From: Paludibacteraceae bacterium
GTDB lineage: Bacteria; Bacteroidota; Bacteroidia; Bacteroidales; Paludibacteraceae
DNA: 35,420 nucleotides
Reading direction: 5' to 3'
Assembly: GCA_024683975.1 (NCBI GenBank)
Contig: JAIKXR010000093.1
Coordinates: forward strand, 1 to 35,420
The notes beneath the pieces are model-generated. The model worked only from the letters and a program-made list of their open reading frames with translations, had not been told where the DNA came from and did no database searches. Below, piece after piece: positions 510 through 6,687 of this stretch (positions within the stretch are counted from its first letter, which is position 1; each line of letters opens with the position of its first letter). The position numbers were made by a program, and so were the translations under genes.

Positions 510-3500
510 ATGAAACAAATGATTCGATTTTCGGCGGTTGTTCTGGGTTTGATGCTTGGGACTCTGCAAGTTTGGGCACAGAGTCTGCCTTCCAAAATCA
601 CTGTCTATGCGACAGCGAAAGCGGTGACAGACGGTAATGGTCAGGTGGCGGTATCAGAAGTGACATCACCTACACCTGAATACCAAACAGTTTCAGCGGA
701 AAGTACTTTTTCGCATAAGGGTACCACTATGACGGAAGCATTGCCTCAAGGCGGGCTTTATGTGTACGCCTATTACTACGCGAAACCTGATGAAGGTTAC
801 TATTTCGACCACTGGACAAAGGTTGAAACAAACGAGACTTTTACTGAGATGCCTCGTTTGGACTCTGTGTTGAGTTCGGGAACGACGAGTAATTTTGATG
901 GTACGGGTACTCCGTATTTCTTCCCCCTTGAAGAACCTACGGGAACTGTTTATAAAGGGAGTTACCAGACGATAGGCACGTACAAGGCTGTCTTCAAAGC
1001 CATCCCCGTGTATAGCTGCACAGGCGGACAACTTGTATATACATCTGCAGGCGAGACCAAGAACTGGAACGTGTCCTTTTCAACCGGACACGCAACCTCT
1101 CTTGCTGATTTCAACACGCCGGCTTTCGCCAACGCTACAGCAGGCGGGACGTTCAGTCTGAATTGGGCAGACGCTGCGTTTGCCGACAATGTAGTGACTA
1201 TACCCGTGTCGTTCACGGCTTCTGCCGTAGGTACTTATACCGCCGACCTGACGCTTGCGTCCAAAGGCGGAGCTTCGTTCAAAGCCGTTATCAAGGTGAA
1301 TGTTGAGGCAGCCGCCGCCAACGACGTTTTGGTGAAGAACGGCAGCATACAGAAGACACTCTCGTGGGCAGACGGTCTGGCACAAGCGGCTGACGGCGAT
1401 ACAATCCAATTGCTCCGCGATGTGACATTGGGTTCGACCCAAGACATAACAAAGAATCTGACGCTTGACTTGAACGCCCGCAGTTTGGGAGGCAAGTTGA
1501 ATGTGAACGGCGGTGACGTGACGGTTATCGACAGCAAGATGGTCGGTGTCATTCAGTCGGAGGGTCAGACGCTGACCGTTACATCGGGTACGCTGACGCT
1601 CAAGCGCGGCGAGATTATCGGCGAACGTGCGGTAACAGTGCTTTCGGGTGCCGTTTTCAACCTTAATGACGGCAAATTGACGGCTACTTCGGTTGGTATA
1701 GAGGTCAACAACGGTACAGTGAATATGTTGAGCGGCGAGGTCAAAGTGTCTGCTTCCGATGGCGGAACGGGAATTCTGATGAATAACGGTTCTGTCAATA
1801 TGAAAGGCGGCAAGGTGAACGTTGCCTCCACCGGTTCGTATGCGAAAGGTGTGGCTGTGAATGCGGGCGGTTTTACTGCTCACAATGTGAAGATTACGGC
1901 TACAGCTCCGACAGCAACGGCCATGGACGTACTGAACGGCAAGGCAGACCTCGGTCAATATGCCATTCTCAATGCTGTTGCGACCGGCACAGGAAACGCC
2001 GTTGCTCTCAATGCCGGGAATACGGTAACGGTTGACGGTGCGCGCTTCAGTGCTTCGAATACGAACGGCAGCCTGCCTGAGATTGATGGTAGCGGCGTTA
2101 CAATTGCTTCGGGCTATTTCGTGATGGACGAGTGGGTTAACGGATATTCTCTTGCTGCCAACCAAGCTATATATAATCTCGGTGCCGGTCAGGCCTACGT
2201 GGACGGCTACCGCTTCTTTATCGGTACGGCGGAGAATGCGAGCAATGATGCCGTCAGCGTCTGCGCCATCGGTTCGACCGCATACGGCACGTTGGAAGAG
2301 GCTCTGCTCTATGCACAGAACAATCCGGACGAGGTGCTGACCATCTTGATGATCAACAACTATACCGTTCCTGCGGGTTACTACACACTGCCCGCCAACG
2401 CGACCCTGCTGGTACCGGCTTCGGCATCGCAGAAAGAGTCCTTGAACGGCAAGGTTACCCGTACCCGCGATGCAACTGAACACAAGGCATACCTGACTCT
2501 GACTTTCGCTTCGGATGCACATTTGGATGCGTACGGCAAGATTGAGACAGGCGGTTACCAATTGTGCGGCAATGTGATGGAGGCAGCCTCAAGTGGCACT
2601 TCCACCGGTGCATACGGTCTGATCAGACTCAATTCCGGAAGCACAATGACTTTGGAAGACGGCGCTGTTTTGTATGCATGGGGTTACGTGATAGGTGACG
2701 GCGAGATTCATGCAAGGCGCGGTTCTACAGTCCGCGAGTTCTTCCAGGTTTATGACTGGCCCGGTGCAGGCAATGCATTCAATATCTATCAGGCAGCAGA
2801 TGAGAAGAAAACGTTCCCGCTGAACCAGTACTTTATCCAGAACGTGGAGGCGGCAACGGTTTATCATCCGGGTTCACGCCTTTACACAGCGTTTGCCGCA
2901 CACGGTGCCGGTATAACAGCTGCTGCGGATAATATACAGGTAGTAGGTTTGTCGGGCGAGAACGCTATGTACTTGATGGATCCTGCCGCAGATGCGGAGA
3001 ACACATGGGTTCGCAAGTGGTACGATGTGAAAAACGACAAGCAGGTATATGACGTGAACAGCGGTGCCCACCTTGGCTCGATGGTGATTGCTCTTCCGAT
3101 GCTCCAGGCTCTGGGCATGAAGGAATTCGATTCGAAGTTGTTCGTACTGCCTCTGACAAGCAATATGAAGATTCACCTGCTGACTGGTGAGATGGACATT
3201 ACCCAGAGTACGGAGATGATTCCGGGTACGGAGATTGAGGTGGACAAGGAAGCGACCGTGACGGTCAATCCGGGTATTTCGCTTTACTTGTTCGATACTG
3301 ACCAATGGGATAAGTTCGCACGTAACGCGTACGCGCAGGTGGTAGGTTACACGCCTTCGTGGGGAGGCAAGCCGACCGTTCGCAAAGTGTCCTCGTTAGA
3401 GGCCATAGGTGATGCCAAACTCAATGTACATGGTACATTCGACATCAAGGGGCGTCTGCTGACTACTACGTCTGGCGCAAACATCTTCTCCAACAATGCG

Positions 3501-6368
3501 GATGCCGGTACGGTACGTTTCACTACTGCCGCTCCCGCCTCTGCCGATGACCTGCTCTACCAATTCTATACAAGCAGCAAAGAGTTCTGCGAGGGTATAG
3601 CCACCGTTCCCGCCCTGCTTCGCAACAGCGAAGGCCAGGATCCTGCTTTTGCCGAATCCGCATCGACCCCTGCCGGACAGGCATACTGCTTCGTGGAGGA
3701 CAAATGGCGCATAATGACGGATGCCCATCCGTTCGTATATGACAATTACGGTGTATGGTATGTCAAGCCGGGTGCTTACGTGGCAATAGCGACCCAGGAA
3801 AGCAAAACAGAAGAGATCGGTACCGAGCCGCGTCTCAATGCCGACCATACTTACAGCGATGCTGCAGGCGACGGCAGACTCTTCATCCTCGTGGAAGAAC
3901 AATGGTGGGAGGTGGAGCTGGAAGACAACCTCTACCGTGCAACCAACGGCAAGTACTACGTGTATGACGACGACGAAGGCGCATACTCTGAACCCCGCTG
4001 GCACGAGAAACAGTTCTATGTAACGTTCGTCAACTGGGACGGAAGCGATATTCTCGACAACGAGAGCAATCCTACCTTCTATGGATTGTCCTACGGCTCG
4101 ATGCCTTTCTTCAACGGCACCAACCCGACTCGTGCGGAAGACGTGGACTACACCTATACATTTACTGGTTGGATGCCCGCCTTTGCTCCTGTGACTGAGG
4201 ATGCTACCTATACGGCGGTCTATGAGGCGACGCAGCGCAAGTACACCATCATCTTCCTTGACGAGAACGGAAAGGAGATAGAGCGTCACTTCCTGACCCG
4301 CGATGAGATACCTGAGTGCAAGAATACTCCCGCCAAGACAGGTTACTTCCTCACATGGTCTCCTGGTATCGGTGCCGTAACAGGCGATCAGACCTATCAG
4401 GCAGTCTTCACTCCCGAACCCAAGACCGAGTTCACCATCATCTTCAAGAACTATGATGGTTCGGAACTGAAAGTCTGTGAGGCTGTCAAAGAGGGGACAC
4501 TGCTTGCAGGACTCTATACCGGTGTGCCTGAAAAACCCGCGACAGCCGAGTTCACCTACACGTTTGCCGGTTGGCAGCCCGCCATCGACGGACAGACGGT
4601 TGCCACGGCGGATATGAGCTATACCGCCCAGTTTACTGCTGCACGCCAGAAAGCCGCTGTTACGTTCAATGACGAATACGACGACCAAATAGGTGAGGTA
4701 CAGTATGTGGAGGTAGGACAGACACCTGACGCTCCCAATTATACTAAACAATCAGATGCTGAATATACATACACAGTAACATGGTGGCCCACAGTATCGG
4801 CTGTTGTTTCGCCGGATCCTGTTACTTATACAGCTGAAATCAGTGCGGTGAAGAACAGATATACGGTGAAAGTGACCACTACGAACTGCACCGTCACCGG
4901 CGCAGGTACGTATGAATACGGTGAAAAGGTAACGCTGACGCTTGTTCCTGCCGCAGGGTATGAGTCCGCCAAGTGGAACGACAACACCACAGGTGACAAG
5001 GTTATTACCGTTACGGGCGACGTAACTTTGAGTGCTACAGGTGTCAAGGACGATGACGAACCGGATGAGCCTGAGACACCCGAAGAACCCACCGATTTGG
5101 TAATTGAGGTTGATGGTGTGCAGACTGTGGTTGAACCCACTACGGTTGCCAACCTGACTATCAAGGCAAGTGCTACCGGTGCCGGTCAGTTGATTGGCGC
5201 AGATAATGTGCAGATTGCTACCGGCGGCAACGCTTACTTCAAATATCAGTTCAACGCAGCTGCCAAGACATGGTACGACTTTGCCGTTCCGTTCGAGTGC
5301 AACGGAGCAAGCATAATGAATGCAAGCAACAACACATTAACTCTCGGCAAAGATTACCACATCATCAGTTTCAACGGTGCGACACGTGCCACTATCGCTG
5401 ATGAGGACAAAGATACCGACAAATCGGCATGGGAGTTCCTGGCACAACAAGCGGACAAGACTTTGGTACCGGGTCGCCTGTATATGATTTACTTCAATGA
5501 TGCGCAAGCAGAGGTAACATTCACGAAGAAATCAGGTGCTGCCATTGTTTATGCGGATCAAGTTATGGTAAGTCTCTATGATAACGGCGGTTATGCCACC
5601 ACATTGGCAGAGAACTGGAACGGCATAGGCAATCCTACGCTCTATACAGTACAGATGTCAGTCGAACAGGTTACTTTCGGTCAGTTCTACAAACCCGGAG
5701 ATGACAGTTATGACACCAAGACGCTTGATGCAGAAGCAATGTATGTAGGTAAAGCGGTGTTTGTACAGGCCAAGGTTTCGTGCGCGGTGGCTGTTGAGCA
5801 GTTCCCGATGAGCGCGCCCATACGCCGCAGTGCATACGAGAGTGATGAAAGTGTTATCACCATTTCGGATGATACGCAGGTAACGGATCGCGTTTATCTG
5901 CTTACTTCGGAAGATGCTCTTGATGAATATGTCATCGGAGAGGATCTTGCCAAGGTGGGTGTCAGCAGCAAGGTGGCACAGATGTGGGTTAACCGCTATG
6001 ATGCCAAGTTGTGCGTCAATACGGTGGCCGCCGATGAAAATGACGTAACCGAATATCCGATGGGCATTTATGCTCCTAAGGCAGGTGCTTATACGATAGC
6101 AGCTGTAGAGAGCAAGGCTGGTACGCAAGTGCTGCTGACGATGAACGGCATAGTTGTTGCCGACCTTACCCGTGGTGCTTATACGCTTGATTTGGCTCGC
6201 GGCACGACCACGGCTTACGCAATCCGTGTAGTAGGCCAGCGCGGTGTACCTACGGCTATTGATTCCGCTGTTGATGCACAAGAGGGTGCAGAGAAAGTGA
6301 TTCGTAACGGTGTGCTGTACATTATCCGCGAAGGAAAGGTATATGACGCACAAGGAAATGAACTTTAA
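510..6368 (+). CDS. Very large secreted surface protein with a beta-helix-like region and InlB/Listeria-Bacteroides-type repeats
   Basis: 1952-aa ORF. Signal-peptide-like N-terminus (MKQMIRFSAVVLGLMLGTLQVWAQ). Short G/N/T/V-rich repeats around nt 1330-2120. Repeats of the type FVNWDGS...YTFTGWMP...TYTAVY around nt 4010-4650 plus a bacterial-repeat unit (YTVKVTTTNCTVTGAGTYEYGEKVTLTLVPAAGYESAKW). Acidic Pro linker (DDDEPDEPETPEEPTD). Conserved-looking C-terminus. Confidence 0.9.
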   Translation: MKQMIRFSAVVLGLMLGTLQVWAQSLPSKITVYATAKAVTDGNGQVAVSEVTSPTPEYQTVSAESTFSHKGTTMTEALPQGGLYVYAYYYAKPDEGYYFDHWTKVETNETFTEMPRLDSVLSSGTTSNFDGTGTPYFFPLEEPTGTVYKGSYQTIGTYKAVFKAIPVYSCTGGQLVYTSAGETKNWNVSFSTGHATSLADFNTPAFANATAGGTFSLNWADAAFADNVVTIPVSFTASAVGTYTADLTLASKGGASFKAVIKVNVEAAAANDVLVKNGSIQKTLSWADGLAQAADGDTIQLLRDVTLGSTQDITKNLTLDLNARSLGGKLNVNGGDVTVIDSKMVGVIQSEGQTLTVTSGTLTLKRGEIIGERAVTVLSGAVFNLNDGKLTATSVGIEVNNGTVNMLSGEVKVSASDGGTGILMNNGSVNMKGGKVNVASTGSYAKGVAVNAGGFTAHNVKITATAPTATAMDVLNGKADLGQYAILNAVATGTGNAVALNAGNTVTVDGARFSASNTNGSLPEIDGSGVTIASGYFVMDEWVNGYSLAANQAIYNLGAGQAYVDGYRFFIGTAENASNDAVSVCAIGSTAYGTLEEALLYAQNNPDEVLTILMINNYTVPAGYYTLPANATLLVPASASQKESLNGKVTRTRDATEHKAYLTLTFASDAHLDAYGKIETGGYQLCGNVMEAASSGTSTGAYGLIRLNSGSTMTLEDGAVLYAWGYVIGDGEIHARRGSTVREFFQVYDWPGAGNAFNIYQAADEKKTFPLNQYFIQNVEAATVYHPGSRLYTAFAAHGAGITAAADNIQVVGLSGENAMYLMDPAADAENTWVRKWYDVKNDKQVYDVNSGAHLGSMVIALPMLQALGMKEFDSKLFVLPLTSNMKIHLLTGEMDITQSTEMIPGTEIEVDKEATVTVNPGISLYLFDTDQWDKFARNAYAQVVGYTPSWGGKPTVRKVSSLEAIGDAKLNVHGTFDIKGRLLTTTSGANIFSNNADAGTVRFTTAAPASADDLLYQFYTSSKEFCEGIATVPALLRNSEGQDPAFAESASTPAGQAYCFVEDKWRIMTDAHPFVYDNYGVWYVKPGAYVAIATQESKTEEIGTEPRLNADHTYSDAAGDGRLFILVEEQWWEVELEDNLYRATNGKYYVYDDDEGAYSEPRWHEKQFYVTFVNWDGSDILDNESNPTFYGLSYGSMPFFNGTNPTRAEDVDYTYTFTGWMPAFAPVTEDATYTAVYEATQRKYTIIFLDENGKEIERHFLTRDEIPECKNTPAKTGYFLTWSPGIGAVTGDQTYQAVFTPEPKTEFTIIFKNYDGSELKVCEAVKEGTLLAGLYTGVPEKPATAEFTYTFAGWQPAIDGQTVATADMSYTAQFTAARQKAAVTFNDEYDDQIGEVQYVEVGQTPDAPNYTKQSDAEYTYTVTWWPTVSAVVSPDPVTYTAEISAVKNRYTVKVTTTNCTVTGAGTYEYGEKVTLTLVPAAGYESAKWNDNTTGDKVITVTGDVTLSATGVKDDDEPDEPETPEEPTDLVIEVDGVQTVVEPTTVANLTIKASATGAGQLIGADNVQIATGGNAYFKYQFNAAAKTWYDFAVPFECNGASIMNASNNTLTLGKDYHIISFNGATRATIADEDKDTDKSAWEFLAQQADKTLVPGRLYMIYFNDAQAEVTFTKKSGAAIVYADQVMVSLYDNGGYATTLAENWNGIGNPTLYTVQMSVEQVTFGQFYKPGDDSYDTKTLDAEAMYVGKAVFVQAKVSCAVAVEQFPMSAPIRRSAYESDESVITISDDTQVTDRVYLLTSEDALDEYVIGEDLAKVGVSSKVAQMWVNRYDAKLCVNTVAADENDVTEYPMGIYAPKAGAYTIAAVESKAGTQVLLTMNGIVVADLTRGAYTLDLARGTTTAYAIRVVGQRGVPTAIDSAVDAQEGAEKVIRNGVLYIIREGKVYDAQGNEL

Positions 6369-6388
6369 TAACGAAATAATAAAGTACT

Positions 6389-6535
6389 ATGAAAACTTAT
6401 ATCAATCCTGAGACATCGTTGGTAACGATGACAAGTGGTCAGATTTTACAGAGTACCTCACCGATTATACCTACACCCTCTTATCCCGGAGCTCCGGCTC
6501 GCGAGTCATATTCGCCTCGTCAGGAATCGAAGTAA
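6389..6535 (+). CDS. Small 48-aa protein of unknown function, probably co-transcribed with the giant gene
   Basis: ATG at 6389, TAA at 6533-6535: MKTYINPETSLVTMTSGQILQSTSPIIPTPSYPGAPARESYSPRQESK. It starts 20 nt after the upstream stop and ends just before a terminator. Below the length cut-off of the supplied ORF track. Confidence 0.7.
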   Translation: MKTYINPETSLVTMTSGQILQSTSPIIPTPSYPGAPARESYSPRQESK

Positions 6536-6550
6536 GCAAGGGTACATAAA

Positions 6551-6589
6551 CAAAGAAAGCTACCTAATTAAGTTAGGCAGCTTTCTTTG
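6551..6589 (+). terminator. Rho-independent terminator after the giant gene and the 48-aa ORF
   Basis: CAAAGAAAGCT-a-CCTAA / loop TTAAG / TTAGG-c-AGCTTTCTTTG; long near-perfect stem whose 3' arm is T-rich. Confidence 0.8.
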
Positions 6590-6687
6590 TCAAAGGCATT
6601 ACTTTGTGGAAGTGGCGGCGGAATTTTGAGATAATTGCAGACTTTTCAGCTTTCGACGGTGAATATATACTCAAACACTAATGAAAA

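Follow-up and report, generated by a model that had tools for sequence, protein, structure and literature searches.

A multi-copy family of small Bacteroidales proteins encoded behind genes for probable type IX cargo

Is a 48-residue ORF lying immediately behind the gene for a giant surface protein a gene at all and, if so, what might its product do there? The question is raised by the window analysed here, a stretch of 35,420 nt from a Paludibacteraceae bacterium, which is the entire contig C163 of a 2.3-Mb genome (94% complete, 182 contigs) and which matched nothing in a plasmid search. The larger gene (positions 510-6368, plus strand) encodes a secreted protein of 1952 residues, hereafter the cargo, with a signal peptide visible by inspection and a divergent InlB B-repeat (PF18998, E = 1.2e-5). 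The two named relatives that are closest by cargo gene, 71-73% identical, are both rumen Paludibacteraceae MAGs. The frame and translation of the small ORF, which reads MKTYINPETSLVTMTSGQILQSTSPIIPTPSYPGAPARESYSPRQESK, were confirmed. With its stop codon it occupies positions 6389-6535 of the plus strand, exactly as the original prediction had it, and the 20 nt between the cargo stop and its start (6369-6388, plus strand) are too few to hold a terminator. Beyond it lie genes for a DUF3667 protein and PriA.

The small ORF has relatives. A tblastn search covering the window's own genome and 150 others of the genus, 151 in all, retrieved four close homologues, 62-69% identical, each preceded by a gene whose encoded C-terminus is very similar. 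The same search gave a dozen weak matches which are themselves ORFs of 43-60 residues with the same opening; weak matches containing internal stops (L016, L017 and L021, for example) were left out as chance-like. Pairwise comparison of the five orthologues gives dN/dS values of 0.13-0.39 for nine of the ten pairs, whose synonymous sites are close to saturated; the remaining pair has a saturated dS and yields no ratio. Related genomes do, then, contain homologous small ORFs and dN/dS is not near 1, two of the points on which the original prediction had staked itself, and the substitution pattern indicates that purifying selection is acting on the orthologue group of the window gene. Ratios of 0.6-0.9 were obtained for two more subtypes, each represented by two or three close sequences, but they are based on few changes only. 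Because homologues exist, synonymous changes per site far exceed non-synonymous ones and gene order is conserved, the ORF is not a product of chance and can be accepted as the real gene it was proposed to be. A conserved non-coding 3' element that merely resembles an ORF would account for the strong hairpin adjacent to it (see below), and deserves hardly any credence: the family was found via protein profiles, gaps and lengths vary, and the amino-acid conservation, the dN/dS values and the near-saturated synonymous sites effectively rule it out.

Profile searches were made of species representatives, mostly draft genomes. At E = 0.1, a profile of 16 members was positive in 121 of the 151 same-genus genomes, with up to 16 copies per genome; in the window's own genome it matched the window gene with E = 3.9e-21, the window sequence itself being part of the profile. 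Across the order, the genus-trained profile was positive in 13 of 393 genomes, matches of this and one other search in L174, L175, L176, L178, L183, L224 and L238 being left out as chance-like. A second profile, run on 15 genomes of a different genus (g114 of family f111, Prevotella-like to judge from its tails), was positive in 13 of them, with up to 24 copies. The alignment reveals two conserved segments. At the N-terminus the motif (K)KxYxxPxTxxVx(L/F)xxxx(I/L)(L/M)xxxSP spans residues 1-25 (6389-6463, plus strand). Towards the C-terminus, residues 35-45 of the window protein read APARESYSPRQ (6491-6523, plus strand), the family form being AP(K/A/S)R and then an aromatic or hydrophobic residue; small proteins of the g114 and G536 type mostly end in R...W(D/G)(D/E) in place of APxR...F. 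Over 64 aligned members Y4 and P7 are invariant and K2 and P36 at least 90% conserved, and the same Tyr and Pro are invariant in 11 members from other families. No sequence of the 64-member set scored above cut-off with Pfam or NCBIfam, nor did any of the 11-member set with NCBIfam or PHROGs. Comparison with solved structures gave no credible match, and no description of this small-protein family was found in the open-licence literature, which is weak evidence of novelty. With two profiles hitting many genomes and no curated family matching, the impression that similar short ORFs are common and unannotated in Bacteroidales turns out to be well founded. Judged from these sequence comparisons, the window ORF is a real, selected member of an uncatalogued, multi-copy family of Bacteroidales small proteins.

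The genomic surroundings of the family are strikingly uniform. As many as 64 of 71 distinct members lie behind an ORF with a short tail, K(V/I/F)xxNGxLYIIRxGxxYxxxGxxx, a tail gene here being a pattern match within 900 nt upstream; several of the remaining seven are at contig ends or behind a tail variant. The gap between cargo and small ORF does not exceed 60 nt in 44 of these 64 cases or 150 nt in 57, with a median of 35-40 nt and some values of -4 (ATGA overlaps). A tail gene is found no more than 300 nt upstream of 71 of 104 family ORFs, whereas the same holds for 15 of 511 non-family control ORFs, likewise short and intergenic, from the loci retrieved (odds ratio 71). The association is not circular, since members were picked by sequence alone, and it substantiates the clustering behind proteins with a YDAxGN-type tail for which a test had been proposed. 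In the profile lists of six genomes, at least 32 of 45 small-ORF matches (E < 1) lie behind a listed tail on the same strand within 770 nt, a lower bound given that 150 of 316 tail matches were listed. The random-position expectation here, about 0.6% per ORF, flatters the linkage; a fairer one by our own estimate, with about 4% of genes bearing a tail, still leaves a huge excess. The pairing recurs in g114, where some 26 of 30 small ORFs, judged by eye, lie directly behind cargo whose tail is of a different design, roughly (Y/F)xLxGxxxxx(K)G(x)YIxNGKKxxxK, and likewise for all three small ORFs of G536. Members thus recur directly behind genes for large secreted proteins that are probably type IX substrates.

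Looked at from the cargo side, a recognised small ORF follows about one-fifth of tail genes among the matches listed for the six genomes, so that the small protein is not generally required for secretion. The share is likely to be an underestimate because many family members are divergent; one further member outside the profile list was spotted by eye at L134. Where a small ORF is recognised, the open frame of the cargo gene tends to be longer than where none is (medians of 1071 and 625 residues, p = 0.001).

Several individual loci show variations on the arrangement. At L009 an XRE-type regulator-like gene (identified by eye) lies between cargo and small ORF, the latter being kept. L260 (G113:C3) has two tandem cargo genes, each with its own small ORF, their tails being GVYVVNGVKIVK and the short tail. 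Downstream of the tail gene at G113:C34:45637-45729, L131 carries a different small ORF, ending PSPLGDAMLPLTLLACAYMCLRPFLKRKR, with a C-terminal segment resembling a membrane anchor. Members at L267:3708-3893, L268:3852-4013 and near position 469 of L258 adjoin other surface-protein genes, fimbrillin- or FISUMP-like by eye, in place of type IX cargo.

What, then, is the nature of the tail? Many Bacteroidales use type IX secretion to bring major enzymes and adhesins to their surface. The tail of the window cargo (6267-6365, plus strand; profile E = 1.0e-16) ends in KVIRNGVLYIIREGKVYDAQGNEL and is one of many: its profile gives 84 matches in the same genome, and the consensus, KVIxNGxLYIIRxGxxYxxxG, is found at the C-terminus of many long ORFs. 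Like the T9SS type A sorting domain (TIGR04183/PF18962), it is C-terminal, multi-copy and attached to long secreted proteins in genomes that encode SprA; it differs in comprising only about 35 residues, and neither model matches the last 220 residues of the window cargo. The cargo of a distant relative, at L177, does match a T9SS type A sorting domain (E = 1.7e-11). SprA (TIGR04189) scores above cut-off in all six genomes tested, the window's own and five relatives. Four genomes rich in short tails (G000, G017, G113 and G150, with 63-84) have TIGR04183 counts of 3-18, whereas the tail-poor G011 and G028, with 9-10 short tails, carry 39-41 TIGR04183 domains but lack any convincing small ORF, an inverse relationship seen across six genomes only. 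The presence of SprA, together with this inverse abundance relative to the canonical signal, makes it probable that the tail represents a shortened, and likely undescribed, signal for type IX sorting. An AlphaFold2 model of the cargo C-terminus (mean pLDDT 39.7) was unusable.

The two genes appear to be transcribed together. A strong terminator had been claimed 15 nt behind the small ORF, and a long terminator-like hairpin was located 14 nt past its stop codon, at around 6550-6590 on the plus strand. At -25.9 kcal/mol it compares with a shuffle mean of -13.0 (z = -4.8), and none of 200 shuffles was as good. A simple terminator scan did not flag it, probably because the T-rich strand sits inside the stem. 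At 64 related loci the best hairpin has a median of -24.4 kcal/mol downstream of the small ORF but of -8.5 kcal/mol around the cargo stop, and 61 of them have a hairpin of -12 kcal/mol or lower within 110 nt downstream of the small ORF. Given a strong hairpin after the small ORF and weaker ones around the cargo stop, a single transcript with the small ORF as its last cistron is suggested, though unproven. Such a layout would suit a small cytosolic regulator of the cargo operon, made once the whole cargo has been read and feeding back on transcription, translation or mRNA: the small ORF is usually the 3' cistron ahead of the hairpin, and the ATGA overlaps suggest coupled translation. We nonetheless think it unlikely, there being neither a match to a nucleic-acid-binding family nor a predicted fold, and some members lying away from any such cargo.

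Some members without such a cargo gene upstream (L256, L257 and L266) bear also on whether the small gene is a passenger, copied along with duplicating cargo genes and having an unrelated function, for example as an envelope-stress or protease-adaptor peptide. The member at L266:2929-3102, beginning MEAKKKYIKPEIEIVKIDTEISLVMMTSPPGDP, lies behind an M23-peptidase-like gene and beside an alanyl-tRNA-synthetase-like gene (both by eye), and may be a conserved family member without type IX cargo. Besides such isolated members, a passenger would explain why the small protein and the tail covary mostly through common descent: the Mantel correlation is 0.49 overall and falls to 0.11 where tails are less than 65% identical. 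Small ORF and cargo are nevertheless paired in separate families whose tails differ in design, and they stay paired where synonymous divergence is near saturation, so we hold a mere passenger to be rather improbable. Tail-specific coevolution as a general claim is likewise unsupported, with r at 0.11 among divergent pairs. Over the 151 genomes, counts of tails (first-look candidates) and of small ORFs correlate with a Spearman coefficient of 0.57, a value confounded by relatedness and completeness.

The protein itself consists of two short conserved motifs joined by a Pro/Ser-rich linker, and has no signal peptide by inspection. Its N-terminal half had been thought ordered, a notion that did not hold up: AlphaFold2 gives no fold and no secondary structure (mean pLDDT 72.9, pTM 0.22), and among the orthologues of the window gene it is the C-terminal half that is more conserved (pN/pS 0.23, against 0.52 for the N-terminal half). 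The relation is reversed in two other subtypes, where conservation is stronger in the N-terminal half.

A short, unfolded protein with many paralogues is reminiscent of a peptide precursor. The precursors of linear polyphosphorylated peptides have a constant N-terminus and a variable C-terminus (PMC13381572), and both they and lasso precursors are, like the present family, short, with an N-terminal YxxPx and a variable C-terminus (PMC10368454, PMC13381572). The family might accordingly be RiPP-like, with a YxxPx(T/I/V/L/M) leader bound by an RRE encoded elsewhere and a C-terminal part cut off or modified, the product perhaps decorating the surface or signalling from there. Its N-terminal motif resembles the lasso-peptide leader YxxPxL (PMC10368454) as well as the leader YxxPxVLxHQxIxFETxxS of the polyphosphorylated peptides (PMC13381572), and one member weakly matches positions 1-11 of the model NF033528 lasso_cyano (E = 0.004, 17.1 bits, cut-off 33). 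Against this, the lasso leader is YxxPx(L/V/I/F/A), while the window protein reads YINPET, with T in the last position, a site occupied by I, V, L, M or T in other members. The lasso Thr at -2, Gly at core position 1 and Asp/Glu at core positions 7-9 are absent from the window sequence by inspection, and the alignments contain no shared core pattern. The window gene, furthermore, has no maturation gene beside it (its neighbours encode the DUF3667 protein and PriA), there being no adjacent RRE, leader peptidase or cyclase gene; sequence conservation among orthologues extends to the C-terminal half; and the family adjoins surface-protein genes. Lasso peptide membership was rejected for lack of both core pattern and enzymes. 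The broader RiPP-like reading, which retains the leader likeness and is the chief named rival of the reading favoured below, strikes us as doubtful, and the more specific scheme in which paralogous YxxP-leader proteins share one RRE-like adaptor and are processed or modified to give each cargo its own companion peptide as more doubtful still.

Three fused genes offer a hint about localization. The gene at L251:3283-3867, which immediately follows a tail gene, joins a complete small protein to the front of a lipoprotein-type signal peptide, and at L250:3418-4527 and L252:3448-4557 the N-terminal motif precedes such a signal in a larger protein, possibly fimbrillin-like, Pfam giving no match above cut-off. 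These are possible Rosetta-stone fusions, and since the motif stands ahead of the signal peptide it would be on the cytosolic side in all three. The arrangement recalls the ESPR of large autotransporters (PMC2805444), where large secreted proteins are likewise associated with a conserved segment at the N-terminus. The small protein in the window is a separate gene, however, fusions are confined to these three loci and to lipoprotein-like proteins, and no sequence relationship between the ESPR and the family motif is apparent.

We tentatively favour, as quite possible if short of probable, an unstructured cytosolic adaptor made together with the cargo and aiding its export or assembly. The small protein would be made in the cytosol just after translation of the cargo, and its place of action would be the inner membrane, on the cytosolic side, while the cargo undergoes Sec export or assembly. 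The KKxYxxPxT motif at its N-terminus would bind to a conserved component that all these cells share, with the C-terminal APxR..(F/W) motif as a second contact. A constant cellular partner is a more likely target than the tail because the pairing recurs behind differently designed tails and because covariation is hardly present among divergent pairs. Consistent with an adaptor are the linkage and its recurrence across families, the short gaps and ATGA overlaps, the purifying selection, the longer cargo, the presence of SprA in six genomes and the cytosolic placing of the motif in the fusions; counting against it are the partnering of only about one-fifth of listed tail genes, the near-absence of covariation among divergent pairs and the members lacking such cargo.

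Large type IX cargo with a partner gene of its own close by is not without parallel. The PorP/SprF proteins, outer-membrane beta-barrels, provide one, as in SprB-SprF. Genes for type B type IX substrates usually cluster with those for their PorP/SprF partners (PMC10202324). The candidate partner in the window differs in being a protein of 48 residues without signal peptide, predicted fold or Pfam match, and the window cargo does not match the type B CTD (PF13585/TIGR04131).

The family shows that a sizeable class of real small genes escapes current family libraries. The intracellular handling of very large type IX cargo is little understood, and a family of small proteins encoded behind many type IX-like cargo genes, in several families of the order, would be a new and testable candidate for a part in it.
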